Shown here: positions 1 to 64,000 of the stretch, in pieces
How positions within the stretch are numbered: the stretch's first letter is position 1
Layout of the letters: the number at the start of each line of letters is the position of its first letter
Source: Pontibacter russatus
GTDB taxonomy: Bacteria; Bacteroidota; Bacteroidia; Cytophagales; Hymenobacteraceae
DNA: 64,000 nucleotides
Reading direction: 5' to 3'
NCBI RefSeq assembly: GCF_009931655.1
Contig: NZ_CP047984.1
Coordinates: 1,612,001 to 1,676,000 of the forward strand
The notes under the pieces: generated by a model
The model's database searches: none
Seen by the model: only the letters and a program-made list of their open reading frames with translations
Told to the model about the DNA's origin: nothing
Made by a program: the position numbers and the translations under genes

Positions 1-2002
1 CCTTTGTAGCGAATCCTGGTGTACTGATTACTGGGTGGTGAAAGTGGATGCCAGCGGCGATAAAGAATGGGACAGAACCTATGGCGGAAGTGAACACGAC
101 AACCTCTACTCCCTTCAGCAGACCAGTGATGGGGGCTATATCCTTGGTGGAACCTCTATTTCTCCAGTCAGCGGGGACAAGACCGAAGCCAGCAAAGGAA
201 GTAGTGATTATTGGGTGGTGAAAGTGGATGCCAGCGGCGACAAAGAATGGGACAGAACCTACGGCGGCAATGGATACGAAAGCCTTGAATCAGTTCAGCA
301 GACCAGCGAAGGCGGCTACATCATAGGGGGGACCTCTGTATCTGGTAGCAGCGGAGATAAAACTGAACCCTCCAGGGGAGATTATGATTTCTGGGTGGTG
401 AAGCTCAAGGTAGACAGCCCCCCTCCGGTTACCGCTGCGTGGGACCGGCGCTACGGGGGCTCCGGCACCGACCGCTTCACCGTCGTCGTCCCCACCCCCG
501 GCGGCTACCTGGCCGGCGGCTACTCCTCCTCTGCCGTCAGCGGCGACAAGAGCCAGGGCAGCCGGGGCGGCTATGACTTCTGGATCGTCAGGACCGACAG
601 GGACGGCCAGAAAATCTGGGACCGGCGCTACGGCGGCCCATCCGACGATTACCTCAACCGCATCATTCCCACCCTGGACGGCGGCTTTCTCCTGGCCGGC
701 AGCTCCAGGTCCGGCCAGGGCGGCGACAAGAGCCAGCCCAGCCGTGGTTCCCAGGACTTCTGGATCGTCAAGATCTCGGCCACCGGGGAAAAGCAGTGGG
801 ACAGGACCTTTGGCGGCAGCGGCCTCGATGACCTGCGCAAGGCCAGCCAACTGCCCTCAGGCGAGTACCTCCTGGCCGGCACCAGCGACTCCCCTTCCAG
901 CGGCGACAGGAGCCAGGGGCGCCGGGGGGGCAACGACTTCTGGGTGCTCAAGCTCAGCGGCGGCGGCGACAAGCTCTGGGACAGGCGCTACGGCGGCAGC
1001 GAAAATGAGGAGTTGGAGAGCTTCATGAAAGCCCCGGGCGGGGGCTTCCTCTTAGGCGGCAGCTCGGCCTCCGGCATCAGCGGGGACAAGAGCCAGGAGA
1101 GCCGGGGCGGCAGGGATTTCTGGGCGGTGCGCATCGACGGGGATGGCAATCGACTCTGGGACAGGGGCTTTGGCGGAAGCGCAGACGAGGACCTCTACTC
1201 CATGGGACGTAATGCCAACGGCGACTTCTTCCTGGCTGGCCACAGCACCTCCGGCGCCGGGGGAGACAAGAGCCAGGGCAGCCAGGGGGGCAAGGACTTC
1301 TGGATGCTGCTGGTCAGCGACAGTGGAGAGAAGCTATGGGACAGGCGCTTTGGCGGCAGTGCAGACGAGGAACTGCGCTCCATCATCCAGAGTCACGATG
1401 GGGGCTATCTGCTGGCCGGCAAGTCCTTCTCCGGCGCTCGCGGCGACAAGTCGGAAGCCAGCCGGGGCGCTTCCGACTACTGGATCGTGAAGACGGACGC
1501 GGAGGGCAACAGAGAGTGGGACAAAACCTTCGGCGGCCCAGGGGCAGAGGAGCTGCGCTACCTGCTGCGCACCGGCGGCGGGGGCTACCTGCTGGGGGGC
1601 CGCTCCGACTCGGGCGCTGGGGGCGACAAGAGCCAGCCCAGCCAGGGAGGCACGGACTATTGGCTGGTGCAGGTCTCTCCTTCGGGAGATACACCGTTAG
1701 CACAGACCCTGGCCTTGGAGGCGGAAGGATTCTTGGAGCAGGCAGGCCTGGCGGCCTATCCCAACCCCTTCCAAGATAAGATTGCTATCAGATTCTCGCT
1801 TGAGCAGACCCAGGCGGCGGAGCTGAAGGTCTACGATAGCCAGGGCCGCGAAGTGGCCGTGCTCTTCCAGGGCGAGGCCCAGGCAGGCAAGGCGTATCAG
1901 GTGGAGTGGCGGCCAACAGAGCGGCAGGCAGGTGGCATGTACTTTCTCCGCCTCCATAGCGCCCTTGAGACCAGCTCCCAGAAAATAATCCTCAAGAAGT
2001 AA
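1..2002 (+). CDS. T9SS-secreted repeat protein, 5' truncated by window
   Basis: The reading frame is open to the left edge, so the true start lies outside the window. Nine tandem repeats of about 57 residues are visible, each starting with W-D-[RK]-x-[YF]-G-G, then an acidic D/E-x-L patch, G-G-[YF]-L-L-G-G, S-G-D-K-[ST] and D-[YF]-W-[VI]-V-[KR]. Such repeats are common in secreted Bacteroidota proteins and may form a beta-propeller-like fold (inference). The last about 80 residues (from A-Y-P-N-P-F) form a type A T9SS C-terminal sorting domain ending K-I-I-L-K-K, so the protein should cross the outer membrane by T9SS and have this domain removed. Repeats 1-2 are less GC-rich than 3-9 and a K-V-D-S-P-P-P-V linker separates the blocks. 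Function beyond secretion is unknown. Confidence 0.85.
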   Translation, partial: LCSESWCTDYWVVKVDASGDKEWDRTYGGSEHDNLYSLQQTSDGGYILGGTSISPVSGDKTEASKGSSDYWVVKVDASGDKEWDRTYGGNGYESLESVQQTSEGGYIIGGTSVSGSSGDKTEPSRGDYDFWVVKLKVDSPPPVTAAWDRRYGGSGTDRFTVVVPTPGGYLAGGYSSSAVSGDKSQGSRGGYDFWIVRTDRDGQKIWDRRYGGPSDDYLNRIIPTLDGGFLLAGSSRSGQGGDKSQPSRGSQDFWIVKISATGEKQWDRTFGGSGLDDLRKASQLPSGEYLLAGTSDSPSSGDRSQGRRGGNDFWVLKLSGGGDKLWDRRYGGSENEELESFMKAPGGGFLLGGSSASGISGDKSQESRGGRDFWAVRIDGDGNRLWDRGFGGSADEDLYSMGRNANGDFFLAGHSTSGAGGDKSQGSQGGKDFWMLLVSDSGEKLWDRRFGGSADEELRSIIQSHDGGYLLAGKSFSGARGDKSEASRGASDYWIVKTDAEGNREWDKTFGGPGAEELRYLLRTGGGGYLLGGRSDSGAGGDKSQPSQGGTDYWLVQVSPSGDTPLAQTLALEAEGFLEQAGLAAYPNPFQDKIAIRFSLEQTQAAELKVYDSQGREVAVLFQGEAQAGKAYQVEWRPTERQAGGMYFLRLHSALETSSQKIILKK

Positions 2003-2019
2003 AATTCTTATCTTTCTGC

Positions 2020-2050
2020 AAGGGCCGGATATTGATAATAACCGGCCTTT
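2020..2050 (+). terminator. Hairpin after the T9SS repeat protein
   Basis: GGCCGG pairs with CCGGCC around a 13-nt loop, extended by G-T/A-T pairs, 18 bases after the stop codon and followed by TTTGCATTTT. A weak intrinsic terminator. Confidence 0.5.
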
Positions 2051-2135
2051 GCATTTTATAGCCCACCCATTAGCATAACGCAAATAATATTGCGCAGCGG
2101 CTCGCTGAACCGAAGTGACCACTGTACATCCAATT

Positions 2136-2169
2136 AAAAGCGCCGCCTCAGGAATGGGGCGGCGCTTTT
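2136..2169 (+). terminator. Strong bidirectional-type terminator hairpin
   Basis: AAAAGCGCCGCC and GGCGGCGCTTTT form a 12-bp perfect stem with a 10-nt loop, with A and T tracts on both sides. It isolates the upstream secreted-protein gene from the polysaccharide cluster. Confidence 0.75.
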
Positions 2170-2512: not shown

Positions 2513-3370
2513 ATGCTGGCAGCAGAAGAGAAGCGGTGGGAGTGGGAGATTAATAACAAGACAAGCTACTGGGGCGAAAGCCTCCGGGAACTCTGGTCGT
2601 TTCGGCACCTGCTGGGCAGCCTGGTGCGGCGCCATTTCATCCTGAACTACCAGCAAACCGTGTTAGGGCCTTTCTGGATACTGTTCCAGCCCATCATGAC
2701 GCTCGTCACCTACGTGGTGGTGTTCGACAAGATGGTCGGCATCCCGACCGGAGACCTGCCGCCTGTGCTGTTTTACTTCTCGGGCATCGTGCTCTGGAAC
2801 TTCTTCAGCGACAGCTTCTCGGGCACCTCCAACACCTTCCGCGACAACGCCCAACTGTTCAGCAAAGTGTACTTCCCGCGGCTCGTCATGCCGCTTGCCA
2901 CTGTCGCCACCCAATTTCTGCGCTTCCTGATGCAGTTGGTGATGCTGCTCCTGTTCATCGCGTACTACTGGCTTTTCAAAGACCTGCGCCTCTCTTTCGG
3001 CAGTTGGGCGCTTGCCTTTCCGCTGGCCGTTGTGCTTACGGGCGGCATCGGCCTGGGGCTGGGCCTGTTCTTCTCGGTGCTGACAGCGAAATACAGGGAT
3101 ATCTCGAACCTGGTGAGCCTGGGCATCCGGCTCCTGATGTTTGTGACTCCCGTTATTTTCCCGCTCAGCACGGTGCCCGACAACGTGAAGTGGATTGTGG
3201 GAATAAACCCCCTCAGCCCGCTGTTTGAGCTTTTCCGGCTGTCGTTGCTGGGCGAGGGGTATGTCTCGCCGTGGCAACTGCTCTACAGTGTGGTGTTCAT
3301 GGTAATTGTGCTATCCGGCGCTTTGCTGCTGTTCAACAAGCAGGGCACCAAACTGATGGACGTGGTATAA
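2513..3370 (+). CDS. ABC-2 type polysaccharide export permease
   Basis: A 285-residue integral membrane protein of the Wzm/TagG (ABC-2) family, the channel half of an ABC exporter that moves lipid-linked O-antigen, teichoic-acid-like or capsular glycans across the inner membrane. The N-terminal amphipathic part (L-W-S-F-R-H-L-L, then R-R-H-F-I-L-N-Y-Q-Q-T) precedes the usual L-G-P-F-W-I-L motif, and about six hydrophobic segments follow between residues 55 and 280. Length is typical. The ATG at 2513 follows TGGAG. The cognate ATPase starts 7 bases after the stop, and glycosyltransferases follow, which supports a surface polysaccharide role; the glycan itself cannot be deduced. Confidence 0.92.
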   Translation: MLAAEEKRWEWEINNKTSYWGESLRELWSFRHLLGSLVRRHFILNYQQTVLGPFWILFQPIMTLVTYVVVFDKMVGIPTGDLPPVLFYFSGIVLWNFFSDSFSGTSNTFRDNAQLFSKVYFPRLVMPLATVATQFLRFLMQLVMLLLFIAYYWLFKDLRLSFGSWALAFPLAVVLTGGIGLGLGLFFSVLTAKYRDISNLVSLGIRLLMFVTPVIFPLSTVPDNVKWIVGINPLSPLFELFRLSLLGEGYVSPWQLLYSVVFMVIVLSGALLLFNKQGTKLMDVV

Positions 3371-3377
3371 GAGCGAT

Positions 3378-4646
3378 ATGGGAGAAGTAGTCATAGAAGT
3401 AGAGCAGCTGTCCAAGATGTACCGCCTCGGTACCATCGGCACGGGCTCGTTCCGGCAGGATCTGCAGCACTGGTGGACGACAAGCGTGCTCCGGAAAGAA
3501 GACCCTTTTTTCCAGCTGGGCACAGAAGCACCCGGTGCGGGGGGCAACCAGGCCCTCTGGGCGCTGCAGGATGTCAGCTTCGGAGTAAACCGTGGCGAGG
3601 CGCTGGGCATTGTCGGCAGCAACGGCTCCGGCAAATCCACCCTGCTGAAAATCATCTCCCGGATTGTGCGTCCCACGAGAGGCGCCGTCAGAGGAGTAGG
3701 AAAAGTGAGCAGTTTGCTGGAGGTGGGCACCGGCTTTAACCAGGAGCTGACCGGCAGGGAGAACATCTACGTGAGCGGCTATATCCTGGGCATGAGCAAG
3801 CACGAGGTCCGCAGCAAGTTCGACCAGATTGTGGAGTTCTCCGGCATCGAGAAGTTCATCGACACGCCCGTGAAGCGTTATTCCTCCGGCATGTACGTGC
3901 GACTGGCTTTTGCCGTGGCCGCCCACCTGGAGCCGGACATCCTGATTGTGGACGAGGTGCTGGCCGTGGGCGACGCCGACTTCCAGAAGAAGTGCCTCGG
4001 CAAGATGCGGGAGGTAACACAGGCCGAAGGCAGGACCATCCTGTTTGTGAGCCACAGCATGCAGGCCATCAGCAACCTTTGCGACAGGGCGCTGTGGCTG
4101 GACAAGGGGAAGATGAAGGCGATTGGCGAAGTGTCGGGTGTGGTGAACAAGTACATCACCGGTGTGCAGCAGCTGCGCCTGAAGCAAAGCTGGGCAACAC
4201 CGGAAGAGGCCCCCGGCAACGAATGGGTGCGCGTCAAGTCGGTGGAGCTGGTTCCGCACCTCCCCCACCCCGGGGCCCCGCTGGATATCCGGACGCCGCT
4301 TACGGTGAAGTTTGAGTTCTGGAACATGACCGACGACATCGTGCTCGGCGCTGGGCTGCACCTGTTCACGTACGGGGGCGAGTGCATCTTCGACGTGCCC
4401 TCCCCTTCCAAAAGCTGCGACAAAGGGCTGATAGAAGGCGAATGCACCATTCCGGGCAATTTCCTCAACGACGGCTCTTACTATATATCCCTGATATTCG
4501 TGAGAGACACCTCGGTCTCCCTTTTCTATTTAGAGGAGTGCCTTTCCTTCGACCTGGAAGACTACCGGGAGAACATACAATGGTACGGCAAGTGGTGGGG
4601 GCTGTGCGCCCCAAACTGCCGTTCCGCTTCGAGCAGACAGAAATGA
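3378..4646 (+). CDS. Wzt-type ABC transporter ATPase, probable 3' frameshift
   Basis: This is the nucleotide-binding subunit for the adjacent permease. It shows Walker A G-S-N-G-S-G-K-S-T (residues 80-88), signature Y-S-S-G-M (168-172), Walker B D-I-L-I-V-D-E (187-193) and H-loop His226. Residues about 250-420 form a Wzt-C-like beta-sandwich that in this family recognises the glycan end. The called frame ends with a cysteine/serine-rich tail of about 16 residues. Adding one G to the GGGGG run at 4597-4601 instead gives W-G-A-V-R-P-K-L-P-F-R-F and a stop at 4660, which looks like the normal family ending. The sequence therefore has either a real frameshift or a base-calling error; the catalytic part is intact. 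Confidence 0.9.
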   Translation: MGEVVIEVEQLSKMYRLGTIGTGSFRQDLQHWWTTSVLRKEDPFFQLGTEAPGAGGNQALWALQDVSFGVNRGEALGIVGSNGSGKSTLLKIISRIVRPTRGAVRGVGKVSSLLEVGTGFNQELTGRENIYVSGYILGMSKHEVRSKFDQIVEFSGIEKFIDTPVKRYSSGMYVRLAFAVAAHLEPDILIVDEVLAVGDADFQKKCLGKMREVTQAEGRTILFVSHSMQAISNLCDRALWLDKGKMKAIGEVSGVVNKYITGVQQLRLKQSWATPEEAPGNEWVRVKSVELVPHLPHPGAPLDIRTPLTVKFEFWNMTDDIVLGAGLHLFTYGGECIFDVPSPSKSCDKGLIEGECTIPGNFLNDGSYYISLIFVRDTSVSLFYLEECLSFDLEDYRENIQWYGKWWGLCAPNCRSASSRQK

Positions 4647-4681
4647 TTCTGCAGCCATAGCATACCCACGCGCCACCTTTT

Positions 4682-5953
4682 ATGAGCCTACACCACCCTT
4701 ACCAGATTACCCATATATACCTGGACCAACTGCAGGCGCCGCCCCAACTGGACTTTGACCGGCAGGGCCACTACCTCGTGTTCTGGTGGAAGGCCATTGC
4801 CTTAGGCCACCTGTTTCTGCGCCAGGGCAGTTCCCTCACCCCCGAGGCCTACTATAATAAACTGGCTGCGGCCATCAGCCCCGCCATCGAACACTATGCG
4901 GCAGGGCATGCCGCCGCGACCGGTGATTGGCACCAGTGGCTGCTGCAACAGAATATGCAAGCCTGGGCGGAATGGATGGACCGGATCTTCTCCGCCTGGC
5001 TGCCGGAACAACTGCCCGCCAAAGTGCCGGTATCGGTGATAGTCTGCACCCGCAACAGGGCCGCGCAACTCGGAAAATGCCTGCACATGCTCACCAACCT
5101 AAGCTGCCAGCCAGCCGAAATCGTTGTGGTGGACAATTGCTCCGACGGTCCCTCCACCAGAGAAACAGCGGAAAAGTTCAGCGGTGTTATATATGTGCGT
5201 GAGCCCCGCATCGGGCTGGACATTGCCCGCAACACAGGCATCGCCCACGCCACGGCCCCCATCGTGGCCTATGTGGACGACGACGTGGCGGTACACCCGC
5301 TCTGGCTGTACCGGGTATGGGAAACGTTCCAGGACCCGGCCGTAGCCGCCATGACCGGGCTGGTTATTGCCTCGGAGTTAGACACAGAGGCGCAGTTTAT
5401 TTTCGAGCAGCACTGGAGCTTTAACCGTGGCTATGTGGATGTGGTATACGACCGGGCCTTCTTCGATGCCACACTATCCCAGGGGCCGCCGGTCTGGCGA
5501 ATCGGCGCCGGGGCCAACATGGCGTTTCGCAGGGATGTGTTTGAGGAGGCAGGCTATTTCAACGAACTGCTGGACGTGGGGGCGGCCGGCTGCAACGGCG
5601 ATTCCGAGATGTGGTACCGCATCCTGGCGAAGGGGGACGTGATCCTATATAACCCGCGGGCGGTGGTGTACCACGAGCACCGCCGGGATATGAAAGGGCT
5701 GCGGAAACAGATATATTCCTATATGCGGGGCTTCACGGCGGCGGCGCTGATACAGCAGCAGCAGCACCAGAAAGCAGGATATGCCCGCCATATATTCAGA
5801 AAGCTGCCCAGGCACTACCTGCGCATGCTAAAAGCCGGTTTTCCTCGTTACGGATATCGCTACAGCACCTTGTGGGTTGAGATAAAGGGAGTGCTGTCGG
5901 GGCTTGCGTTCTACTTCAGGCACAGGAACCATCGCCCAGACTCAAGCCGCTAA
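4682..5953 (+). CDS. GT2 family glycosyltransferase with N-terminal extension
   Basis: A 423-residue protein with a GT-A glycosyltransferase family 2 domain from about residue 115 to 340: V-S-V-I-V-C-T-R-N-R at the nucleotide-sugar fold start, V-V-V-D-N-C-S-D and metal-binding D-D-D at 199-201. The first 115 residues are an extension without a recognised domain. Related proteins transfer sugars from nucleotide donors to a growing lipid-linked glycan at the cytoplasmic membrane face. The gene follows wzt and precedes the next transferase by 3 bases, so it is surely in the same operon. Donor and linkage cannot be predicted. Confidence 0.88.
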   Translation: MSLHHPYQITHIYLDQLQAPPQLDFDRQGHYLVFWWKAIALGHLFLRQGSSLTPEAYYNKLAAAISPAIEHYAAGHAAATGDWHQWLLQQNMQAWAEWMDRIFSAWLPEQLPAKVPVSVIVCTRNRAAQLGKCLHMLTNLSCQPAEIVVVDNCSDGPSTRETAEKFSGVIYVREPRIGLDIARNTGIAHATAPIVAYVDDDVAVHPLWLYRVWETFQDPAVAAMTGLVIASELDTEAQFIFEQHWSFNRGYVDVVYDRAFFDATLSQGPPVWRIGAGANMAFRRDVFEEAGYFNELLDVGAAGCNGDSEMWYRILAKGDVILYNPRAVVYHEHRRDMKGLRKQIYSYMRGFTAAALIQQQQHQKAGYARHIFRKLPRHYLRMLKAGFPRYGYRYSTLWVEIKGVLSGLAFYFRHRNHRPDSSR

Positions 5954-5956
5954 GGT

Positions 5957-7585
5957 ATGGCCGCAGCACCCAAAACCGATTTTCCGCTGGTCTCCGTTAT
6001 AATCCCGTGTTATAACCACGGGCGCTATTTGCAGGAGGCCGTGCAGAGCGTGTGGAGCCAGAACTACCCCGCCACGGAGGTGCTCGTGGTGGACGACGGC
6101 TCGACGGACGACACGCGGGAGGCGGCTGCTGCCTGCGCCGGCGTGCGTTATATATACCAGGCCAACCAGGGGCTCTCCGCCGCCCGCAACACCGGCATCC
6201 GCCACAGCCAGGGTGAGTTTCTGGTATTCCTAGACGCGGACGACTGGCTTTTGCCGGATGCTATCCGGACAAATGTGCGCTGGCTGCAACAGGACAAGCG
6301 GCTAGCGTTCGTGTCGGGCGGGCACGACAAGGTGTTTGTGGAGGAGGGCATCACCAAAGCAGACCTGACTGAGGTGAAGGATAACCACTACCAGCACCTG
6401 CTGCAGGGCAATTACATCGGCATGCATGCCACTGTGATGTACCGGCGTCAGATTTTTGATGAGGTGCTATATGACACCACCCTGAAGCGCTGCGAGGACT
6501 ATGACCTTTACCTGAGAATCGCGCGGAAGCACCCGGTGCTGCACCACTGCCAGCGGATTGCCGCCTACCGGCTGCACACCACCAACATGTCGGCGAACAT
6601 ACCGGCCATGCTGGGCACGGTGCTCGAGGTGCTGGCGCGCCAGCAAAGCCAGCTGCAAACGGCGGCCGAGCAAAGCGCGTACCGGCGCGGGCAGCGCGTC
6701 TGGAAAAACTATTACTGCCAGGAACTGTACCGGAAGGCGCTGGCCAAGAAAGTACCTGTTACCAAAGAAGTTATATTTACCCTTTTGAAACACCAGCCAT
6801 CACTCATACCACGCTATATGCTTACACCCTACGCCTCCGCCATCAAGTCCCGCATCCGGAAAAATGCCCCCGCCTTCGGGCTGAGGTGGCTGCACAGAAT
6901 GGGCCTGCACAAGGAATACGTGCCCGCAGTCGGGAAGGCTGACCTCGGCGACTTTGACAGCACACGGCCCTTCAGCAAAAACTTCGGCTATGACAGGGGT
7001 GGCCCCGTGGACCGGTATTATATAGAGAACTTCCTGCAGCAGGAGGCCGGGAGCATATATGGCCGGGTGCTGGAGATAGGCGACAACGAATACACCCTGC
7101 GCTTTGGGGGAAACCAGGTGGCGCAGAGCGACATCCTGCACGTAGACGCCAGCAACCCGAAGGCCACTTTTGTGGGGGACATCAGCGACGCGCCGCACCT
7201 CCCCGACAACACCTTCGACTGCCTTGTGCTGACCCAGACGCTGCACCTCATATATGATTTTAAAGGTGCGCTCCGGACCTGCCACCGCGTGCTGAAACCG
7301 GGTGGGGTACTGCTGCTGACGGTGCCCGGCATCACCCCCATCGACCACGGCGAGTGGAAAGAAACCTGGTACTGGTCGTTTACCGACAAGGCCATGCGCC
7401 GGCTGATGGAAGAGACCTTTGCCGGTGGCCACGCCGATGTGAACTGTTTCGGGAATGTGTTTGCCGCCACTGCTTTTTTATATGGCATGGGCCTGCCGGA
7501 GGTGCCCAGGGCGAGACTTGACTTCAACGACCCGCATTACCAGGTCGTCGTAACCGTAAAAGCTGTAAAAGCACCCACCGCTTGA
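5957..7585 (+). CDS. Fused GT2 glycosyltransferase - SAM methyltransferase
   Basis: Residues about 9-250 are a GT2 domain with V-S-V-I-I-P-C-Y-N, V-V-D-D-G-S-T-D-D-T and D-A-D-D-W at 93-97. Residues about 340-535 form a class I methyltransferase-like domain: V-L-E-I-G near 367, V-D-A-S as the acidic ribose-binding loop, D-C-L-V-L-T-Q-T-L-H-L near 418 and L-K-P-G-G-V-L-L near 440. The glycine-rich SAM loop is degenerate (G-D-N-E-Y). One polypeptide could add a sugar and methylate the same residue or cap the chain, which in ABC-exported glycans often sets chain length (family knowledge; inference here). The stop overlaps the TTG start of the next gene. Confidence 0.85.
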   Translation: MAAAPKTDFPLVSVIIPCYNHGRYLQEAVQSVWSQNYPATEVLVVDDGSTDDTREAAAACAGVRYIYQANQGLSAARNTGIRHSQGEFLVFLDADDWLLPDAIRTNVRWLQQDKRLAFVSGGHDKVFVEEGITKADLTEVKDNHYQHLLQGNYIGMHATVMYRRQIFDEVLYDTTLKRCEDYDLYLRIARKHPVLHHCQRIAAYRLHTTNMSANIPAMLGTVLEVLARQQSQLQTAAEQSAYRRGQRVWKNYYCQELYRKALAKKVPVTKEVIFTLLKHQPSLIPRYMLTPYASAIKSRIRKNAPAFGLRWLHRMGLHKEYVPAVGKADLGDFDSTRPFSKNFGYDRGGPVDRYYIENFLQQEAGSIYGRVLEIGDNEYTLRFGGNQVAQSDILHVDASNPKATFVGDISDAPHLPDNTFDCLVLTQTLHLIYDFKGALRTCHRVLKPGGVLLLTVPGITPIDHGEWKETWYWSFTDKAMRRLMEETFAGGHADVNCFGNVFAATAFLYGMGLPEVPRARLDFNDPHYQVVVTVKAVKAPTA

Positions 7586-8601
7586 GAAAAGGTTTGCGAC
7601 ATATCCTCAACAGGCTTTTTGAGCACAAGGCCCTCGTGCTGATGTACCACCGTGTGGCGGCGCCAGCGGCGGATATATGGGATATAGCCGTGAGCCCCGA
7701 AAACTTTGAGCAGCACCTGAAAATCCTCCGGAAAAAGGGCAATGTGCAGCCCCTGCGGCAGTTGGTGGCAGAACTGAGAGACGGCAAGCTCCAGAAAAAC
7801 AGCATCGCCATTACGTTCGACGACGGCTATATAGATAATTTCGCTGTCGCGAAGCCGCTGCTGGAGCAGTACGGGTTGCCGGCTACTTTCTTTATCACCT
7901 CGGGCAATATTGGCAAGGATGAGGAGTTCTGGTGGGAGGAGTTGGAGCATATCCTCCTGTTTACCCCAAAGCTGCCGCAGACCTTTTCCGCCGAGGTGGG
8001 GGAAGGCCCGTTTACTTTCGACCTGCAGGCAGAGACGCACCTGACAGTGGAGTTGCGGCAAAGGCATATATACTGGAACGCATGCGACGAGGCACCTCCC
8101 ACCCGGCGGGCGGAGCTTTTCCTCGCGCTCTGGCAACAACTGAAACCGCTGCCATATATAGCGCAAAAGGAGTTGCTGGGCCACATCCGGGACTGGGCTG
8201 GCGTGCCCGTGTCGCGGCGGGCGGCCTATAGAAGCATGACTGCCGCGCAGCTGCAGGAGATGGGCCGGGGCAGCCTGTTCGACATCGGCGCCCATACGGT
8301 GACACACGCGGCTTTGGGGATGCACCGCCTGCCGGTGCAGGAACAGGAGTTGCGCGACAACAGGCAGTATCTGACAGCCGTAACCGGGGCAGACATTCCG
8401 CTGCTGGCTTACCCCTACGGCAACTACAACAGCGACACGCTGGCAGCGGCGGTGAACACGGGCTTTGCGGCGGCCTTCACCACCGAGGAGAAAGCCGTTA
8501 AAAAGCGCTCCTCTCTATACAGGCTGGGCAGGCTGCAGGTCAAGAATCTTCCGGGGCAGGCGTTTGCGGCCCAACTGGATGCGTGGCAGCATAAATTATA
8601 A
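7582..8601 (+). CDS. Polysaccharide deacetylase family protein (NodB/CE4)
   Basis: The protein has the N-terminal L-M-Y-H-R motif, T-F-D-D-G-Y at 78-83 (catalytic base and metal Asp) and a distal H-T-V-T-H metal-binding pair, which define carbohydrate esterase family 4. It would remove N-acetyl groups from sugars or act on an analogous substrate of the cluster. The start is a TTG that overlaps the previous TGA by four bases (TTGA); the first ATG lies inside the conserved M-Y-H-R and is too late. No secretion signal is evident, so it may act on cytoplasmic lipid-linked intermediates. Confidence 0.85.
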   Translation: MRKGLRHILNRLFEHKALVLMYHRVAAPAADIWDIAVSPENFEQHLKILRKKGNVQPLRQLVAELRDGKLQKNSIAITFDDGYIDNFAVAKPLLEQYGLPATFFITSGNIGKDEEFWWEELEHILLFTPKLPQTFSAEVGEGPFTFDLQAETHLTVELRQRHIYWNACDEAPPTRRAELFLALWQQLKPLPYIAQKELLGHIRDWAGVPVSRRAAYRSMTAAQLQEMGRGSLFDIGAHTVTHAALGMHRLPVQEQELRDNRQYLTAVTGADIPLLAYPYGNYNSDTLAAAVNTGFAAAFTTEEKAVKKRSSLYRLGRLQVKNLPGQAFAAQLDAWQHKL

Positions 8602-8607
8602 GATATT

Positions 8608-9522
8608 ATGGCGCAAGCATATACCCCCCTTGTTTCCGTTGTGATTGCCTTCCTGAACGAAGAGAGGTTTTTGGGAGAGGCCATTGAAAGCGTGCTGCAC
8701 CAGGACTACACCAACTGGGAGCTGCTGCTGGTAGACGACGGCTCTTCCGACGGAAGCACACAGCTTGCCAAACAGTACGCAGAAAGGCTGCCCGGCCGCA
8801 TCCGCTATATAGAGCACGAAGGGCATATAAACAAAGGCCTGAGCGCCAGCAGAAACCGTGGCATCCGACAGGCGGCGGGCACACTGGTGGCTTTGCTGGA
8901 CGCGGATGATGTCTGGCTTCCGGGAAAGCTGTCGGACCAGGTGCGGATTTTTGGGCAGCACCCCCCTATAGCCATGGTGGCGGAAGCCTCGTCCTACTGG
9001 TACAGTTGGGACGACCCGCAGAAACAGGATATCCACATCCCGGTAGGTGCCCCGCCGGGCCGTGTTTATACCCCCGGGCAGCTCATAAATCACCTTTATC
9101 CTTTAGGAAAAGGCGCGGCCCCCTGCCCATCGGGCCTGATGCTGGCAAAAGACGCTGTTCAGCGCGTGGGAGGCTTCGAGGAATCCTTCACAAAAGAATA
9201 CCAGCTCTACGAAGACCAGGCTTTTCTGAACAAGGTTTACCTGCAGGAAAGCGTCTATATCTCCTCGGCGTGCAACAATTTATATCGGCAGCGCGCTGGC
9301 TCTATTGTGCAGTGGGTGCATGCAGACGGGCAGTACCATGCGGTGCGGCGGCATTTCCTGGAGTGGTTCGGTGCCTACCTGCGGCAGCGGCAGGTGAGCG
9401 ACAAAAGCATCCAGCGGCTCCTGAAGAAAGCCCTGTTGCCCTATCGCCACCCCAGGCTGCACTTTTTGACGCGCACGCTTCCTGACAAAGTAAAGCGCAG
9501 CATAAAGAAAAGGATGAGATAA
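8608..9522 (+). CDS. GT2 family glycosyltransferase
   Basis: A 304-residue GT-A enzyme with V-S-V-V-I-A-F-L-N-E at the start, L-V-D-D-G-S-S-D-G-S, S-A-S-R-N-R-G-I and the metal-binding L-D-A-D-D-V at about 94-98. A central Y-E-D-Q-A-F segment matches the catalytic-base region of family 2 enzymes. It begins 6 bases after the deacetylase and belongs to the same operon. Donor specificity is unknown. Confidence 0.88.
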   Translation: MAQAYTPLVSVVIAFLNEERFLGEAIESVLHQDYTNWELLLVDDGSSDGSTQLAKQYAERLPGRIRYIEHEGHINKGLSASRNRGIRQAAGTLVALLDADDVWLPGKLSDQVRIFGQHPPIAMVAEASSYWYSWDDPQKQDIHIPVGAPPGRVYTPGQLINHLYPLGKGAAPCPSGLMLAKDAVQRVGGFEESFTKEYQLYEDQAFLNKVYLQESVYISSACNNLYRQRAGSIVQWVHADGQYHAVRRHFLEWFGAYLRQRQVSDKSIQRLLKKALLPYRHPRLHFLTRTLPDKVKRSIKKRMR

Positions 9523-9532
9523 GCAGCAGCAA

Positions 9533-10537: not shown

Positions 10538-10630
10538 AAAAATATTCGTATAATTATTTCTGTTTAAACCGGGTATCGGAAAGCAGTGACTAACCTTTTC
10601 CTGATTTGTTTATCCGGCCTTATTTTTACT

Positions 10631-15822: not shown

Positions 15823-15850
15823 CGTAGTGTGCGTTTTTGTTCTTATTCCT

Positions 15851-15858
15851 CAAAAATA
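15851..15858 (-). promoter_or_regulatory. purK: Putative -7 box of purKE
   Basis: On the minus strand TATTTTTG fits TAnnTTTG, 29 bases before the purK start. No good -33 TTTG is seen at the normal distance. Confidence 0.4.
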
Positions 15859-15959
15859 AGGATTATACGCGAACCTTCCCCTCATGCCGCAGGAATATCG
15901 GCAATTGCGGCAATAGCCTTTGTTTCTCAATATAATCATCGCTATATTTATGATACTTA

Positions 15960-16220
15960 ATGCTCAGAGATATGTCGGAAAGGTTAGCGCGCAGCATGAT
16001 GGTATTGTTCCATGTCCCTTTGTTCCTGATAGCCCTGGAGGTGCTCTGGCATGGGAGCAGCCAGGCGGGAGCCAGCATGCTGCTGGTTCCGTTTCAGTTC
16101 ATCAGCCTGGTCCTGACAGGCTACCTGGTGCTCGGCGACAGCTCCCGCGACGAGTACTACCCCACGCTGCTGGCCCTGCTGGTATATGACCTGGTGCTGT
16201 ACTGGTACATCTTACGATAA
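15960..16220 (+). CDS. Small hydrophobic membrane protein, unknown
   Basis: An 86-residue protein with three hydrophobic segments (about 14-30, 38-56 and 66-86) and no recognised domain. It is divergent from purK and 39 bases before the MarC-family gene on the same strand, so the two may be co-transcribed. An in-frame ATG at 15972 (M-S-E-R-L-A-R-S) is an alternative start. Coding status rests on its composition and hydrophobic pattern only. Confidence 0.65.
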   Translation: MLRDMSERLARSMMVLFHVPLFLIALEVLWHGSSQAGASMLLVPFQFISLVLTGYLVLGDSSRDEYYPTLLALLVYDLVLYWYILR

Positions 16221-54608: not shown

Positions 54609-56075
54609 ATGTCTCCAACCCTTATCATCAGCCTGATTATCGGCTATTTCTGCATCCTCATCTTCATCTCGTACCTCACCAGCAAAAACACCGATTCAGA
54701 GACCTTCTTCCTGGCAAACCGCGCCTCGCCGTGGTACGTGGTGGCCTTCGGCATGATTGGCACCTCGCTGTCGGGCGTTACGTTCGTGTCGATTCCGGGG
54801 ATGGTGGCGACGGCCGAGTTCTCGTACCTGCAACTGGTGCTGGGCTACCTGCTGGGCTACTTCGTGATTGCCACGGTGCTGATGCCGATGTACTACCGCC
54901 TCAACCTCGTCTCCATATATACTTATCTGGAGCAGCGCTTCGGGTACTGGTCATATAAGACGGGGGCGGGCTTTTTCCTGCTGGCGCGCACGCTGGGGGC
55001 CGCCATCCGCCTGTTTCTGGTGGCGGGGGTGCTGCAATTGGCGGTGTTCGATGCCCTGGGCGTTCCGTTTGCCGTTTCCGTTATCATCACCATCGGGCTG
55101 ATATGGGTCTATACCTTCCGGGGCGGCATGAAAACCATCATCTGGACCGACACCTTCCAGACCACCGCCATGCTCATTGCTGTCGGCATCAGCATCTGGC
55201 TGATTTCGGATGAGCTGAACCTGGGCTTTCAGGGGCTGGTGCGCACGATAGAGGCCAGCGACTACTCGCAGGTGTTTTTCTGGGATTGGCAGGACAGCCG
55301 CTATTTTCTGAAGCAGTTCTTCGCCGGGGCCTTTATCGCCATCGTGATGACGGGGCTGGACCAGGACATGATGCAGAAGAACCTGAGCTGCAAAAACATT
55401 GGCGAGGCCCAGAAAAACATGTTCTGGTTCAGCATCATCCTGGTGTTCGTGAACACCCTGTTCCTGTCGCTGGGGGCGCTGCTCTATATATACGCCAACA
55501 CAAAGGGCATCGAGCTGCCGGCCAAAGGCGATGACGTGTTCCCCTTCCTGGCACTAGGCTACTTCCCGCAGATCGTGGGCATCGCCTTCATCCTCGGCAT
55601 CATCGCCATCACCTACGCCTCCGCCGACTCTGCCCTCACCGCCCTCACCACCTCCTTCTGCGTCGACTTCCTCAACTTCAGGGAGCGGAGCGAGCACGAG
55701 CGGGTGCGCCTGCGCTATATCGTACACGTGGGCTTCTCGGTGCTGATGGTGCTGGTGATTCTGGCGTTTAATGTCCTGAACAGCGAGAACGTGGTGACGG
55801 CCGTGTTTACGGTGGCCGGCTACACCTACGGGCCGCTCCTGGGCCTCTACACCTTCGGGCTATATACCAAACGCGCCGTGCGCGACAGGTTCGTGCCGCT
55901 TATATGTGTGGTGGCCCCGCTCCTGACCTACATCATCAGCTACAACTCCGTGGAGTGGCTCTGGGGCTACGAGTTCGGCTTCGAGGTGCTCATCCTGAAC
56001 GGCTTCCTCACCTTCGCTGGCCTGATGGCGGTGTCGTCGGGGAAAGTGGGTGAGCTGGAACTGGCACAGAAATAG
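54609..56075 (+). CDS. Sodium:solute symporter (SSS family)
   Basis: A 488-residue transporter with about 13 membrane segments. The N-terminal R-A-S-P-W-Y-V-V-A-F-G-M-I-G-T-S-L-S-G-V-T motif, F-R-G-G-M-K-T-I-I-W-T-D near 175 and the core T-Y-A-S-A-D-S-A-L-T-A-L-T-T identify the SSS family, which couples Na+ entry to uptake of sugars, amino acids or organic acids. The substrate is unknown. It is 47 bases before the S8 peptidase start. Confidence 0.93.
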   Translation: MSPTLIISLIIGYFCILIFISYLTSKNTDSETFFLANRASPWYVVAFGMIGTSLSGVTFVSIPGMVATAEFSYLQLVLGYLLGYFVIATVLMPMYYRLNLVSIYTYLEQRFGYWSYKTGAGFFLLARTLGAAIRLFLVAGVLQLAVFDALGVPFAVSVIITIGLIWVYTFRGGMKTIIWTDTFQTTAMLIAVGISIWLISDELNLGFQGLVRTIEASDYSQVFFWDWQDSRYFLKQFFAGAFIAIVMTGLDQDMMQKNLSCKNIGEAQKNMFWFSIILVFVNTLFLSLGALLYIYANTKGIELPAKGDDVFPFLALGYFPQIVGIAFILGIIAITYASADSALTALTTSFCVDFLNFRERSEHERVRLRYIVHVGFSVLMVLVILAFNVLNSENVVTAVFTVAGYTYGPLLGLYTFGLYTKRAVRDRFVPLICVVAPLLTYIISYNSVEWLWGYEFGFEVLILNGFLTFAGLMAVSSGKVGELELAQK

Positions 56076-56122: not shown

Positions 56123-57733
56123 ATGAAAAAAATAATTGCAGTCATTGCATTCGCTCTTTCTACAGGAGCTGCTTATAGCCAGAGCGCCCAGCAGGTGCCG
56201 CAGGACTGGCACCTGCTCGACCCTGCGTCGGACGGCGTTTACGGTATAGGCATTGAGCAAGCCTACCAGGAGTTGCTTCAGAACAAGCAGCCGGACACCG
56301 TGCTGGTGGCGGTGATTGACTCCGGTATCGACACCCTGCATGAAGACCTGGTGTCTGTTCTGTGGACGAACCGCCTTGAGGCCGCAGGCGGCGGTGCCGA
56401 CCCGGATAAAAACGGCTATGCCGGCGACATCCACGGGTGGAATTTTCTGGGGGCGGACGACCCCGGCAAAAACGTGACGGAAGACTCTTACGAGAGCCAG
56501 CGGATCTACTTCAACTACAAGGACAAGTTTGCGGGGGTGACTTCCGCAGATCAGGTGAAAAGGAAAGACCGCGACCTGTACCAGGTATGGCTCAGGAGCA
56601 GGGCCGCCGCCACAGAGGCGTCGGAGGCGGGCAAGGAAGTAGAGATGTTGTACAGCCTGCTGGAGGTGCTGCCGCGCGTAGACGCTTTCTTTGCAGACCT
56701 GCTCCAGAAAGACACCTACACGGCGCTGGACCTGGACTCGCTCAAAGCCGATGACCCCAGGGTTGAGCAGGGGAAAACCATATATGGGATGGTGTTTGAG
56801 CGGGTGAAGCCGGGCGTCACCAACCAACAGCTTCCGGTGCTGCTGCAGCAGTATGCCGACAGCCTGAAGGCAAACCTGGCTCCCCCTACCACACCGCCCA
56901 CCGACTACCGCGGCCTGATTGTGGAAGATGACTACTGCAACTTCCGGGATCGCTACTACGGCAACAGCAACATCATGGCCGGAGACGCCTCGCATGGCAC
57001 GCATGTGGCTGGCATCATCGGCGCTGACAGAACCAACGACCTGGGCATCAAAGGGGTGGCCGGTCCGGTAAAGATTATGATGATCAGGGCAGTGCCTGAC
57101 GGCGATGAGCATGACAAGGACATAGCCCTGGCTGTCCGGTATGCGGTAGACAATGGCGCCAAGATCATCAACATGAGTTTCGGAAAAGCTTTCTCCCCCC
57201 GCCGCGAGTGGGTGGAAGATGCCATCAAGTATGCCGAAAAGCACGACGTGCTGATCGTGAAGTCTGCAGGCAACGACAGCAAGAACGTGGATGTGGAGCC
57301 CGCTTTTCCCAGCCCTGTTTACGAAAAAAGCAACGAGCGGGCCGCTAACGTGATTGTGGTGGGAGCCAGCGGCCCCACCCGGAACACCCTGGTGGCCCCT
57401 TTCTCCAACTATGGCAAGAACCTGGTGGACGTTTTTGCCCCCGGTGTCGGCGTGTATTCCACGGTGCCGGGCGACAAGAAATACGCCGCTTTCAGCGGGA
57501 CCAGCATGGCCTCGCCTGTGGTAACCGGGCTTGCGGCCGTAATCAAAGCCTACTACCCGCACCTGTCCGCCACGCAGATCAAGTCGGTCATTGAATCCTC
57601 CGTCACCAAAATCGACGAGCCTGTCATGACACCTGGCACCGGAGAGCCTGTTTCCATGTCAGAGCTTAGCCGCACAGGCGGCATCGTGAATGCCTACGAG
57701 GCTATAAAAAAGGCAGGTACTACGCTGCAATAG
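56123..57733 (+). CDS. S8 family serine peptidase (subtilase)
   Basis: A 536-residue secreted subtilisin-like protease. The signal (V-I-A-F-A-L-S-T-G-A-A-Y-S) precedes the triad: D in V-I-D-S-G-I-D (near 71), H in S-H-G-T-H-V-A-G (near 290) and S in S-G-T-S-M-A-S-P (near 460). The spacing between D and H, about 220 residues, is much longer than usual (about 35), indicating a large inserted region. No T9SS sorting domain is present at the C terminus. The reading frame closes 66 bases before an insertion sequence. Confidence 0.93.
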   Translation: MKKIIAVIAFALSTGAAYSQSAQQVPQDWHLLDPASDGVYGIGIEQAYQELLQNKQPDTVLVAVIDSGIDTLHEDLVSVLWTNRLEAAGGGADPDKNGYAGDIHGWNFLGADDPGKNVTEDSYESQRIYFNYKDKFAGVTSADQVKRKDRDLYQVWLRSRAAATEASEAGKEVEMLYSLLEVLPRVDAFFADLLQKDTYTALDLDSLKADDPRVEQGKTIYGMVFERVKPGVTNQQLPVLLQQYADSLKANLAPPTTPPTDYRGLIVEDDYCNFRDRYYGNSNIMAGDASHGTHVAGIIGADRTNDLGIKGVAGPVKIMMIRAVPDGDEHDKDIALAVRYAVDNGAKIINMSFGKAFSPRREWVEDAIKYAEKHDVLIVKSAGNDSKNVDVEPAFPSPVYEKSNERAANVIVVGASGPTRNTLVAPFSNYGKNLVDVFAPGVGVYSTVPGDKKYAAFSGTSMASPVVTGLAAVIKAYYPHLSATQIKSVIESSVTKIDEPVMTPGTGEPVSMSELSRTGGIVNAYEAIKKAGTTLQ

Positions 57734-57808
57734 CCCCACGTGCTACCCAGGCTTGTCTATATATAGGCCCGGCCCCGGAGATTGGTTCGTCCGGTTTATA
57801 AACATGAG

Positions 57809-59158
57809 TCATCCCGGAGTTTGCAGGGATAGATAGAGTAGATTCCAGAGGTTGGCCAGTGCCAGCCGGATACGGTAAAGCGGTGTAGGAGTTTTCCTGC
57901 ACCGCTTTCCTGTTCTATGGCAGCCCTGCCTAAGGAGATGGGAGACCGCCTCCCGCAGCTCTTTATCCAGCAGCGAGAGCAGAAAAGCATACACCAGGGT
58001 GACCACCTGCAAGAGCTTCATGCGGCTCGACCAGAACCAAAGCCGGCACGACTCCATGCCCATTTCTGATTTGTTGAAGCGGAAGGCCTGCTCCACCTGC
58101 CACCTTCTGGCGTAAGCAAAGACCAGGCGCCAGGCCTGGCGATCACTCCTGACTTCTTCACTGGTGAGCAAATACCAGGGTTGGCGGCCTTTCTTACCTG
58201 GCCGGCAGATCAGGAGCGTGAGCGGCTGGTCATAGTCCGGGTGCAGGCAGGGCTGCCACAAGAGGCTGCGCCGGTAAGTGATCTTTCGGACCATGTCCCT
58301 TACTACTCTTGAGGAGGTGGCTTTGCGGCCGACCGAAAAGCGGTAGGCATTCTTTAGAAGCCCACGCCCATCCACGAGCTTATACCTGGAGGGCCAGCGC
58401 AAGAGGAAGCGGTCGTGGCGGCCTAAAAGCAGCCCCAGCCACTTAGAGGAGGCATAGCCGCGGTCAAAGACGTGCAGCACGGCCTGGCCGAAGGTCTGGC
58501 GGGCCCACAAGAGCAGCGTGAGCTTCACCTGCTCCAGGGAGGTGGCCTCTTTGCCCCGGCTACTCCACCAGGCAAAGCGGGCGATGCGTGGAGCCTGCCA
58601 CAGGCCGCAGCACAAGAGGCCCACCCACCGAAAGCCTGGCACGTGCACCGGCTCCCGGGTGGGGGGATCATAATAGCCCTTCTTGATTCTGAGTTGCCGT
58701 TTAGCTTTGACGCTGCGCACGGCGCATAAGCCCTCGCTTTGGAGGCTTTCGCACTTTTCCTGCACGCTCTCGTCCCACAAAAGCAGGGGCAGCTCACGTT
58801 CCGCTTCCAGCAGCTGCTCTACGTATGTTTGGGCCTCTTGACTCAGGTAGTCGGTGATGAGTTGGGCAGACCACTTCTTACTGCGCAGCAGGTTAGACAG
58901 GCGCTTGGTGCCCGCCGGGGCTTTGTCGGGCGAGAGCACAACCCCACCCAGCTCGCTTAGAAGCAGACCGGTGGAGCGGCTGCGGTGGCGCACCAGCGCC
59001 CGGCATAGGTTCTGGAAAGTGTAGACCAGGCGGCGGTCCAGCAGCTCATCGAGCCTGGCAAGGAAAGGAGAAAGAAATCCTTCGAGGCGGTAGGAGAAAA
59101 ACAGAGCCTGGGAGAGAACCTCGGCTTGGCGTGCTGCGTTTTTGAAAGTAGTAAACAT
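57809..59158 (-). CDS. IS4 family transposase
   Basis: About 449 residues, started at M-F-T-T-F-K (59158) because GGGAGG lies 8 bases upstream. Catalytic residues fit a DDE enzyme: D129 in L-L-L-W-D-E-S, D232 in H-V-F-D-R-G-Y and E356 in the Y-(2)-R-(3)-E-(6)-K signature (Y349, R352, E356, K363), the hallmark of IS4-type transposases. Uninterrupted, so probably functional. It lies alone within the element. Confidence 0.93.
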   Translation of the reverse strand: MFTTFKNAARQAEVLSQALFFSYRLEGFLSPFLARLDELLDRRLVYTFQNLCRALVRHRSRSTGLLLSELGGVVLSPDKAPAGTKRLSNLLRSKKWSAQLITDYLSQEAQTYVEQLLEAERELPLLLWDESVQEKCESLQSEGLCAVRSVKAKRQLRIKKGYYDPPTREPVHVPGFRWVGLLCCGLWQAPRIARFAWWSSRGKEATSLEQVKLTLLLWARQTFGQAVLHVFDRGYASSKWLGLLLGRHDRFLLRWPSRYKLVDGRGLLKNAYRFSVGRKATSSRVVRDMVRKITYRRSLLWQPCLHPDYDQPLTLLICRPGKKGRQPWYLLTSEEVRSDRQAWRLVFAYARRWQVEQAFRFNKSEMGMESCRLWFWSSRMKLLQVVTLVYAFLLSLLDKELREAVSHLLRQGCHRTGKRCRKTPTPLYRIRLALANLWNLLYLSLQTPG

Positions 59159-59159
59159 A

Positions 59160-59213
59160 AGAACCTCCCGTCTTTGGTGATACATAGACTGTACCACTAA
59201 AACAGGAGGTTCT
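59160..59213 (-). promoter_or_regulatory. RBS-sequestering hairpin of the transposase leader
   Basis: AGAACCTCC at 59160-59168 (carrying the transposase ribosome-binding site on the minus strand) pairs with GGAGGTTCT at 59205-59213. A transcript entering from outside could fold and block translation, as described for IS10 and IS50. Confidence 0.5.
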
Positions 59214-59275
59214 CCTTTTTTATCCCAGTCCTAAACTCCGGGATGACTCATGTTTTTGGGTATATAGCGCTGCTG

Positions 59276-59920
59276 CTACTCGTTCAGGGCCATTACCTTG
59301 TTGATGACGTGAATGACACCGTTCCGGCTCATGGCGTCTGCCTCCACCACCTCGGCGCCGTTCACCATCAGCTGGTCGCCCTGCCGGGTCACTTTCAGCT
59401 GTGTCCCGCCTAAGGTTGTCAGCGTAGAGCCGTCCTGCAGTTGGTCTGCTTTCAGCTGCCCTGCCACTATGTGGTTGTTGAGCAAGGCTACCAGCTGCGC
59501 CTTGTTTTCCGGCTCCATCAGGTTTTCCAGGGCGTTCTCGGGCAACGCCTCAAAGGCTTCGTCGGTGGGCGCGAAAACAGTGTGTGGCCCTGTGGCATTC
59601 AGTTTGTCTATCAGTTCCGCTTTCCGGAGCACCGAGGCCAGGGTCGTGAGCTGCGTGTTGGCGGTAATGTTTTGTACAATTGTCTGAGACGGTATCATTT
59701 CATATACCACACCCGGCTCCGCCACGCCTGCCTCAGCGCCCAAAGGGTCGAGGTGCGTGCCCGGCTCCACACCGCGGGCCTCTGCGGTCCGGCGCATGGT
59801 TGGCTCCGTGCTCTCCTCCTGCATCGGGTTTTCCATTCTTTCCTCTCCCGTGTTGCAGCCCGTCAGGCTGCAACCTATCAAAAAGGCAAAGGCATAGGCC
59901 ATTATGTTCGTTTTCTTCAT
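59276..59920 (-). CDS. Fasciclin-domain lipoprotein
   Basis: A 214-residue protein with a lipobox signal (F-L-I-G-C-S-L-T-G-C). The fasciclin (FAS1) domain covers about 78-212: T-L-A-S-V-L-R-K-A-E-L, the G-P-H-T-V-F-A-P-T-D-E-A-F motif and the conserved V-I-H-V-I-N-K-V at the end. FAS1 lipoproteins mediate adhesion or matrix contacts. The linker (about 25-75) is acidic and low complexity. It lies 21 bases beyond the insertion sequence, so upstream reading is not interrupted. Confidence 0.9.
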   Translation of the reverse strand: MKKTNIMAYAFAFLIGCSLTGCNTGEERMENPMQEESTEPTMRRTAEARGVEPGTHLDPLGAEAGVAEPGVVYEMIPSQTIVQNITANTQLTTLASVLRKAELIDKLNATGPHTVFAPTDEAFEALPENALENLMEPENKAQLVALLNNHIVAGQLKADQLQDGSTLTTLGGTQLKVTRQGDQLMVNGAEVVEADAMSRNGVIHVINKVMALNE

Positions 59921-62883: not shown

Positions 62884-63246
62884 ACACACAGACTACTATG
62901 ATTTGGGAGGTGGGGTTGCTGGACGAGGGAGGCAGCGGCTATTGGTACAAATGCCTTTCGATAGAAGGGGACATGGAATTCCCACATGTTTAGTCGCTTC
63001 ATTCATGCAATCTGTTACGTTCTTGTTCGGTAGGATGACCCCATTACCTCGTCCAGTTTAAGATTACAAGCCCACTAAACAATCTGAGGAAATTTACTAT
63101 ATTAGGTCTGTGGAATGTACAGAAATAGTAGAATCACTCAACTGGAAGGCAAAAAATGGAGCAGCAAAGCAGACTGCACCTACTCCATATATAGTGCAGA
63201 TAAGCGTATGTTCACGTATATATCATAGTTGTGGCAAATTATAAAA
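62884..63246. other. Intergenic region before an AT-rich gene
   Basis: About 360 bases without a recognised gene. GC content drops along it; TATATA motifs stand near 63186 and 63217. It likely marks the junction of chromosomal and acquired DNA. Confidence 0.45.
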
Positions 63247-63942
63247 ATGGAAAATCAACCTTCATTACCAAAAATAATCAAAGAATATTCTACTGAATCT
63301 GTAAGATCTACTATAAAAGTTTACCTTTCAGTCTTAGGTCCTTTAGGAACAGCTATTGATGAACTGGTTTTTGGTATTGGTGAAAGAATAAGAGGCAAAA
63401 GGTTAGAAGAGTTTGTTGGAGTCTTATCTGAAAAGATTGATAATACGCGAATTGGTGTTGATTACTTTCAATCAGAAGATTTTTATGATTTGACAATTAA
63501 TATAATTAACTCTTCAGTTAAGACCAATTCTAAGCTTAAGTATGAAATCTTATCAGAAATTTACGTTAATGGAATTAATCGTAATATAAAATGGGAACAA
63601 GACCTAATACAAACCTTTGTAAGGTATGTAAACGAATTAACGCCAAAACATATTCTCATTTTCAAATACCTTGCTCAAAATGTAGAAGAGTTTAAGGATT
63701 TAGACTCATATGAATCCTTGTTCAATTATTTCACTGCCCAAGTCCCTACTCACATAAATGATAAGTATGAGTTCAGAATGTACTTAAAAGATGTTGAAAA
63801 CAAGACGCTTTTAAGATTTAGTAAAGACATAAATGAATTTGGAAGCTCTGGAGGGTATATGGCTTTAGAAAGCTACGAAGAAGTTCCTGGAATAACCTTA
63901 ACATCAATTGGAGCTAAGTTTTCAGAATACCTTCAAAAATAA
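63247..63942 (+). CDS. AT-rich hypothetical protein, probably acquired
   Basis: A 231-residue soluble protein, started at ATG 63247 (M-E-N-Q-P-S). It is visibly far less GC-rich than the surrounding genes and uses codons such as AAT, TTA and ATA. Helix-rich; I see G-I-G-E-R-I-R-G-K-R-L-E-E-F near residue 50, which occurs in uncharacterised defence- or mobile-element-linked proteins I know only vaguely. Function not recognised. It is followed by a structured repeat at the right edge of the window. Confidence 0.75.
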   Translation: MENQPSLPKIIKEYSTESVRSTIKVYLSVLGPLGTAIDELVFGIGERIRGKRLEEFVGVLSEKIDNTRIGVDYFQSEDFYDLTINIINSSVKTNSKLKYEILSEIYVNGINRNIKWEQDLIQTFVRYVNELTPKHILIFKYLAQNVEEFKDLDSYESLFNYFTAQVPTHINDKYEFRMYLKDVENKTLLRFSKDINEFGSSGGYMALESYEEVPGITLTSIGAKFSEYLQK

Positions 63943-63949
63943 CTTTCCA

Positions 63950-64000
63950 CAACAACTCCTATACGGCAGCTATGCCGCCGCAAAGCCCAGTCCGTTGGGC
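63950..64000. repeat. Dyad-rich cassette-like end, cut by window
   Basis: ACAACAACTCC..., GGCAGC/GCCGCC and GCCCAGTCCGTTGGGC dyads follow the AT-rich gene. They resemble the folded spacer at 43191-43262; the feature continues past the edge. Confidence 0.35.

Follow-up and report, generated by a model that had tools for sequence, protein, structure and literature searches.

TATATA in Pontibacter russatus is very probably one dialect of a TATA-centred word of the genus

The hexamer TATATA was analysed in a 64,000-nucleotide stretch of the Pontibacter russatus chromosome (contig NZ_CP047984.1 of assembly GCF_009931655.1, positions 1,612,001 to 1,676,000; hereafter the window) and compared with its counterparts in related genomes. 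TATATA is strongly over-represented throughout this genome and is very probably the P. russatus dialect of a word found across the genus. As such it is the species version of a TATA-centred word repeated thousands of times, and probably acts as a mark read by a putative protein. The preliminary description of the window, made from its letters alone, had suggested a motif that is under selection across the genome and resembles HIP1 of cyanobacteria (a highly iterated palindrome, HIP) or uptake or architectural motifs. The comparison supports that interpretation in kind, the actual finding being larger: a family of species dialects built on one core. Open-licence PMC full-text searches returned no paper that describes a motif of this kind in Pontibacter.

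1–64000 (no strand): whole window, with 119 TATATA/ATATAT clusters, the local share of the 9071 TATATA of the genome

The clusters result from merging 114 TATATA and 84 ATATAT, and their number agrees with the roughly 115 counted by hand in the preliminary description. The guanine-plus-cytosine (GC) content is 56.75%, slightly lower than the 58–60% given there, and independent bases predict about 6.5 TATATA instead of five to six; the excess itself stands, at 17.4x. Markov models of order 1, 2 and 3 predict 4.2, 25 and 77 TATATA, respectively, against the 114 seen, and a dinucleotide model predicts 5.1 ATATAT against 84. The order-3 model was rejected as a null because the enriched tetramers TATA and ATAT are already contained in it. 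Genes were called as greedy longest open reading frames (ORFs), and synonymous codons were shuffled 300 times within each of the 54 genes called in the window. The genes hold 63 TATATA, compared with 11.0 ± 3.0 after shuffling (maximum 21), and 41 ATATAT, compared with 11.7 (maximum 22). Spacers hold a further 49 TATATA, where 3.7 (dinucleotide) or 19.3 (order 2) are expected, which bears out the earlier remark that the clusters lie in genes and spacers alike. Over the whole genome, a single contig of 4,965,849 bp, there are 9071 TATATA (1827 per Mb) and 6372 ATATAT, and TATATA stands at 9–25x over independent bases in 19 of twenty 20-kb samples taken along it. The exception, L026 (G000:C1:1000001-1020000, GC 46.6%), reaches 1.5x and is probably an acquired island. 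The preliminary description had named two results that would undo it, a codon-aware null close to the observed count and a lack of enrichment genome-wide, and neither was found.

Simpler origins of the excess were considered. Ile-Tyr and Tyr-Ile do occur at in-gene sites, as had been noted, but not exclusively: TATATA falls 166, 137 and 64 times in the three codon phases of a 441.5-kb sample of the P. russatus genome. Usage of Tyr-Ile or of the ATA codon was rejected as the cause on the grounds of the codon-shuffling excess, the occupation of all three phases and the presence of spacer sites. Footprints of TA slippage or insertion were also rejected, given that 57 of the 62 window clusters alignable to the congener G059 align without a gap and that the pattern of alternating runs is unlike slippage, with 143 eight-base runs starting with T and 7 with A. 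Regular spacing was rejected as well: the intervals between sites vary with a coefficient of 1.16, close to random with some clustering.

The enrichment is private to one species in the sample of 204 Hymenobacteraceae genomes counted whole: against the 9071 TATATA of P. russatus, the other 203 hold 36–2561, and the other 49 Pontibacter genomes 691–2241 each. A comparison of hexamers on both strands between 444 kb of P. russatus and 267 kb of congeners showed TATATA gained, and GTATAC (136 vs 599) and AAGTAT (170 vs 709) lost. The congeners carry words of their own on the same core: AACTATAGTT reaches 349x over order 2 in Pontibacter sp. Tf4, CAGGTATAGC reaches 75x in HSC-14F20, and AAAGTATAAA reaches 143x in a six-genome congener pool, which included G003, later typed AGG. 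Typing of 50 Pontibacter genomes, with the calls for 46 of them resting on 12.9–20 kb each, assigned AAG-TATA to 19, AGG-TATA to 12, AAC-TATA to 4 and mixtures to 4 (AAC+AAG in 3, AAG+AGG in 1). G059 has a broad NGG-TATA and G002 a weak AGG, 8 genomes were scored as none, and CTA/TTA-TATA (CCA weaker) was found in P. russatus alone, where the consensus is roughly YATATATR (YA-TATA-TR). Among the words, AACTATAGTT and YATATATR are palindromic, unlike AAGTATAA and AGGTATAG.

Whole-genome counts against reversed controls give a similar picture. ARSTATA, with ratios computed by hand from the counts, stands at 3.9–11.9x in 39 of the 50 genomes and at 1.1–3.2x in 11, P. russatus being at 1.3x; the genomes scored as none, meaning that they have no TATA-core word, still show 1.1–3.2x, with G007 (87% complete) at the top. 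YATATATR occurs 4500 times in P. russatus vs 1548 for its control (2.9x), and at most at 1.6x in the other 49 Pontibacter genomes. That maximum belongs to G059 (681 vs 422), which also has TATATA at 3.0x over independent bases and thus shows a weak start of TATATA enrichment; the remaining 48 reach at most 1.14x. When codons were shuffled in pools of genomes, in-gene words were far in excess for each dialect: 369 vs 82 for P. russatus TATATA, 454 vs 61 for AAG, 530 vs 61 for AGG and 212 vs 24.5 for AAC. In the pool of eight motif-poor genomes, AAG, AGG and AAC words reached only 1.5–1.8x, and no strong TATA-core word was found in seven motif-poor genomes that were sampled further. Motif-poor genomes include G024, G041, G047, G054, G056 and G058. 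Nine of the ten other motif-poor genomes measure at least 5.2 Mb, vs 2 of the 39 strong-motif genomes, a size difference for which weaker selection or a larger amount of acquired DNA may be responsible. One genome lacking a TATA-core word, G057 (L098, L169-L171), has a different word, GAGGTAGA, at 22x over order 2. Beyond Pontibacter, 20 kb from each of two genomes of other genera of the family gave CCTACCC at 11x in G075 (L118) and ACCTAGG at 22x over dinucleotide expectation in G213 (L129); these are perhaps separate words of related genera.

Orthologous stretches in the other genomes were located with one region of the window.

14692–24242 (no strand): conserved region with purK, hemE, two TrkH genes and an aminotransferase gene, used as query
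18273–20072 and 20229–22028: tandem TrkH genes

A midpoint-rooted tree was built from up to five concatenated proteins (hemE, aminotransferase, TrkH, an unnamed ORF and purK); purK was included for 39 of the 50 genomes, and the two copies of TrkH make a mix-up of paralogues possible. Two clades of this tree have support 1.0, one made up of the 12 AGG genomes and the other of the AAC and AAC/AAG genomes; AAG is scattered over the remaining branches, and losses appear at several places. P. russatus is placed with G059, G054 and G047 (support 0.993) on a long branch. The dialect words largely track the species tree, a fixed core being accompanied by flanks that follow phylogeny.

The words are denser in spacers than in genes (in the P. 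russatus sample, 438 in 81 kb or 5.4 per kb against 369 in 362 kb or 1.0 per kb). Both strands carry them, and so do spacers between tandem, divergent and convergent genes. In four dialect groups they show no clear peak ahead of gene starts, and convergent spacers are as dense or denser in all four, so that a promoter element was rejected. There is no replication polarity either: forward AAGTATA in G021 was counted at 127/217 in positive-skew and 129/236 in negative-skew stretches, and the strand ratios of the words in the orthologous region are 440:319, 249:259 and 140:103. On the second contigs of G020, G001 and G021, AAGTATA stands at 0.7–8.5x over dinucleotide expectation (8 stretches), compared with 16–43x on the chromosomes (13 stretches).

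Between species of the same dialect, sites are retained well above controls, for which 7-mers 18–30 bases away in the same codon phase were used. Retention at orthologous positions is 2452/5524 (44%) vs 15.8% for AAG, 2232/3432 (65%) vs 25.6% for AGG and 262/406 (65%) vs 27.1% for AAC, and the motif exceeds its local control in 168 of 171, 66 of 66 and 6 of 6 species pairs, respectively; permuted words as controls left this picture unchanged. Across dialects, most positions differ, and the idea that sites are held in place was rejected. When 2547 AAG sites were aligned to AGG species, 9.1% were AGGTATA and 3.9% AAGTATA; of 297 AAG sites aligned to P. russatus, 4.4% have TATATA within 13 bases (background 1.0%). 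So few sites are common to two dialects that position seems of little weight across them. In the motif-poor G054 and G047, 24.9% of 438 aligned AAG sites are still AAGTATA, apparently relics. Within the window, 74 of the 119 clusters could be aligned to at least one relative, and three sites illustrate the comparison.

22435–22440 (no strand): TATATA; seven of nine relatives have TACATA or a TACATA-like sequence (C at the third base), and TATATA is present in none of the nine
32618–32626 (no strand): extended site TATATATAT after TT, inside the ORF at 32131–34293, compared with four congeners
55485–55492 (no strand): palindromic core TATATATA after CTC, inside the ORF at 54609–56075; G059 differs at three of eight bases, with no gap

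Twenty-five site-making changes could be polarised (18 C>T, 3 C>A and 4 T>A), resembling AT-directed changes elsewhere in what is a small sample, with only nine P. russatus sites fully resolved. Destruction of near-cognate words by a Vsr-like repair was rejected, as words one base off are not depleted in the AAG pool (AGGTATA 1.9x, AACTATA 1.7x). An apparent avoidance of TATATA in other dialects (0.4–0.7x) was distrusted, since the motif itself inflates the codon null.

Three classes of such words are distinguished by Elhai 2015 in the sections drawn on here: Chi, uptake sequences and HIPs (PMC4390886). The function of HIP-type words, whose description the same sections date to 1995, has been open since then. 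Alternative HIPs are stated there to replace HIP1 together with new methyltransferases, and an easy change of specificity by a HIP-reading protein is doubted (PMC4390886). Like HIP1 (GCGATCGC) and the alternative HIPs, with about 1000–2000 copies per Mb according to those sections (PMC4390886), TATATA is a strongly over-represented short word, of similar density, that occurs chromosome-wide in genes and spacers, and HIP1 too is swapped for other words in some genomes. The Pontibacter words differ from what is described there in their AT-rich TATA core, their host phylum, Bacteroidota, the persistence of dialects through clades and the fact that not all of them are palindromic. The resemblance to DNA uptake sequence (DUS) dialects is of another kind. 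Frye 2013, in the portion consulted, describes eight DUS dialects on a CTG core in Neisseriaceae that track the tree, and some genomes without the repeat (PMC3630211). A fixed core with lineage flanks is common to both systems, whereas several Pontibacter dialects are denser and the genus has no detected type IV filament platform. Chi motifs, judging by the parts used of "Evolution of Chi motifs in Proteobacteria" (PMC8022716), are likewise over-represented 8-mers on the chromosome; the Pontibacter words differ in having no polarity with the leading strand, a TATA core and a density far above that of Chi in E. coli (one per 5 kb). The Pontibacter words resemble DUS dialects in evolution and HIPs in density and placement; they are taken here as a genome mark of that general kind and as members of neither. 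In the part of PMC7965970 used here, k-mers over-represented in Riemerella and Flavobacterium johnsoniae are reported as putative uptake sequences, and words of this general sort have therefore been sought in Bacteroidota before.

The explanation that we favour, with a probability of about one half, is a chromosomal reader of shifting specificity. The word would be the binding site of a putative chromosome-encoded protein that recognises xxx-TATA-xxx, its thousands of copies being maintained either through weak selection or through a drive that favours word-bearing DNA. When the specificity of the reader shifts, old sites would decay and new ones would arise elsewhere by ordinary substitutions; one such shift would lie on the branch to P. 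russatus. The reader would most likely act on the chromosome inside the cell, in its organisation, recombination or repair. A fuller version, in which Pontibacter possesses a self-recognition code, read chromosome-wide by such a protein, rewritten several times within the genus, each time with thousands of sites re-made at new positions and the old ones decaying, and working without type IV pili, is put forward tentatively, at slightly less than even odds.

Several observations weigh against a chromosomal reader. No reader was found among the families searched (PF01555, ComEC, AddB-sized PDDEXK_1 and PF00482), whole proteomes not having been scanned. The evidence for selection bears on TATATA indirectly, through sister dialects, as it is the dialect word of no second species, and the species pairs behind the retention figures share ancestry and are not independent. 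The several-fold higher density in spacers would also be given by a neutral process. Two-fold recognition is uncertain, because the outer part of the motif forms a palindrome in AACTATAGTT and YATATATR but not in AAGTATAA. Recent arrival could by itself account for the island L026 and the secondary contigs. Contrary to the word-poor secondary contigs, AGGTATA reaches 11.3x in one stretch (L163) of the G002 second contig, above the main contig of the same genome (42 vs 8.6 expected in an 80-kb sample), and was perhaps acquired from an AGG-dialect species.

Among other explanations, DNA-uptake dialects, in which a competence receptor other than a type IV pilin prefers the word and recombination of preferred DNA accumulates it, are judged unlikely. 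The fixed core with species-specific flanks tracking the tree is the DUS dialect pattern as set out in the consulted portion of PMC3630211, the words are scarce on secondary contigs and in the island, and ComEC is found in 50 of 50 genomes. ComEC is, however, present in all motif-poor genomes too and is therefore uninformative; two ComEC matches, in the motif-bearing G022 (G022:C1:2771217-2771876) and G009 (G009:C76:160505-161305), contain an in-frame stop. The type IV filament platform PF00482 was detected in 0 of 50 genomes, with 13 of 14 controls positive, a search in which a very divergent system could be missed; a Neisseria-type pilin receptor is therefore disfavoured, and with it the pilus-dependent form of the uptake motif that had been suggested for the window. 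Still less credible is a by-product of methylation, whereby part of the word is recognised by a methyltransferase and the word builds up through strand-directed repair or a linked process, as proposed for HIPs. According to the sections of PMC4390886 cited above, each HIP-bearing cyanobacterial genome had a methyltransferase to match, and new HIPs appeared along with new methyltransferases, but in Pontibacter PF01555 methyltransferases fit patchily: they occur in 31 of the 50 genomes, and 13 of the 39 with a strong motif lack them, which led us to reject this family as the reader, other methyltransferase classes not having been searched.

A lineage-private mutation bias dependent on sequence context, with no function, would account for the denser spacers and for the predominance of C>T among the site-making changes. 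We regard it as very improbable, since the sites are strongly retained, the T-starting alternating runs are unlike slippage, the word is missing from most stretches sampled on secondary contigs of the same cells, and the 25 changes, a small set, resemble AT-directed changes elsewhere. Chi-like signals that stop a nuclease of the RecBCD/AddAB type are judged about as improbable. The AAG and AGG words are indeed non-palindromic 7–8-mers spread chromosome-wide, and an AddB-sized PDDEXK_1 protein occurs in 50 of 50 genomes, so that its presence is uninformative; yet the words have no replication polarity, two dialects are palindromic, and the motif has been lost where the nuclease is kept.

If the self-recognition code is real, this dialect system in Bacteroidota would be novel, either as an uptake gate or as a chromosome mark. 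Within this one genus the word seems to have changed several times, and the 50 genomes include mixed intermediates (AAC+AAG and AAG+AGG) and several losses. Pontibacter thereby offers a natural mapping panel, and the reader should be the gene whose presence and recognition residues track the dialects. Composition-based binning and the detection of transferred genes also call for caution, since one species alone can acquire a strong oligonucleotide signature.

Two other features lie in the window.

36653–36665 (no strand): spacer element ATATATGTATATA, matched exactly in G059 and almost exactly in G054 and G047, with a near copy about 1 kb away at 37634–37646
57809–59197 (minus strand): IS4/IS701-like transposase gene without any site, present in the genome in 8 copies at 100% identity

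Because it is conserved in relatives, the ATATATGTATATA element is probably separate and older, not a product of the P. russatus dialect, and the pair is possibly an older regulatory element. Relatives of the insertion sequence (IS) transposase found in named genomes lie in Pontibacter at 11 of 11 loci. This gene was one of three places described earlier as almost empty of clusters. The gaps exist, each being weak evidence alone: the first 2.4 kb hold 0 clusters (4.5 expected at mean density), no cluster starts in the IS gene (3.0 expected in 57700–59300), which is flanked by clusters at 57758 and 59261, and the AT-richer genes of 40.8–42.2 kb hold 1 in 40792–42247 (2.7 expected). The interval 2513–12678 contains a run of glycosyltransferase and polysaccharide-export-like genes. 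Finally, three other short words are depleted in the P. russatus sample (the window and L022-L041 without L026) relative to a congener-based expectation, as restriction avoidance would give: GTGCAC (36 vs 296), CTAG (228 vs 682) and GATC (1434 vs 2786).

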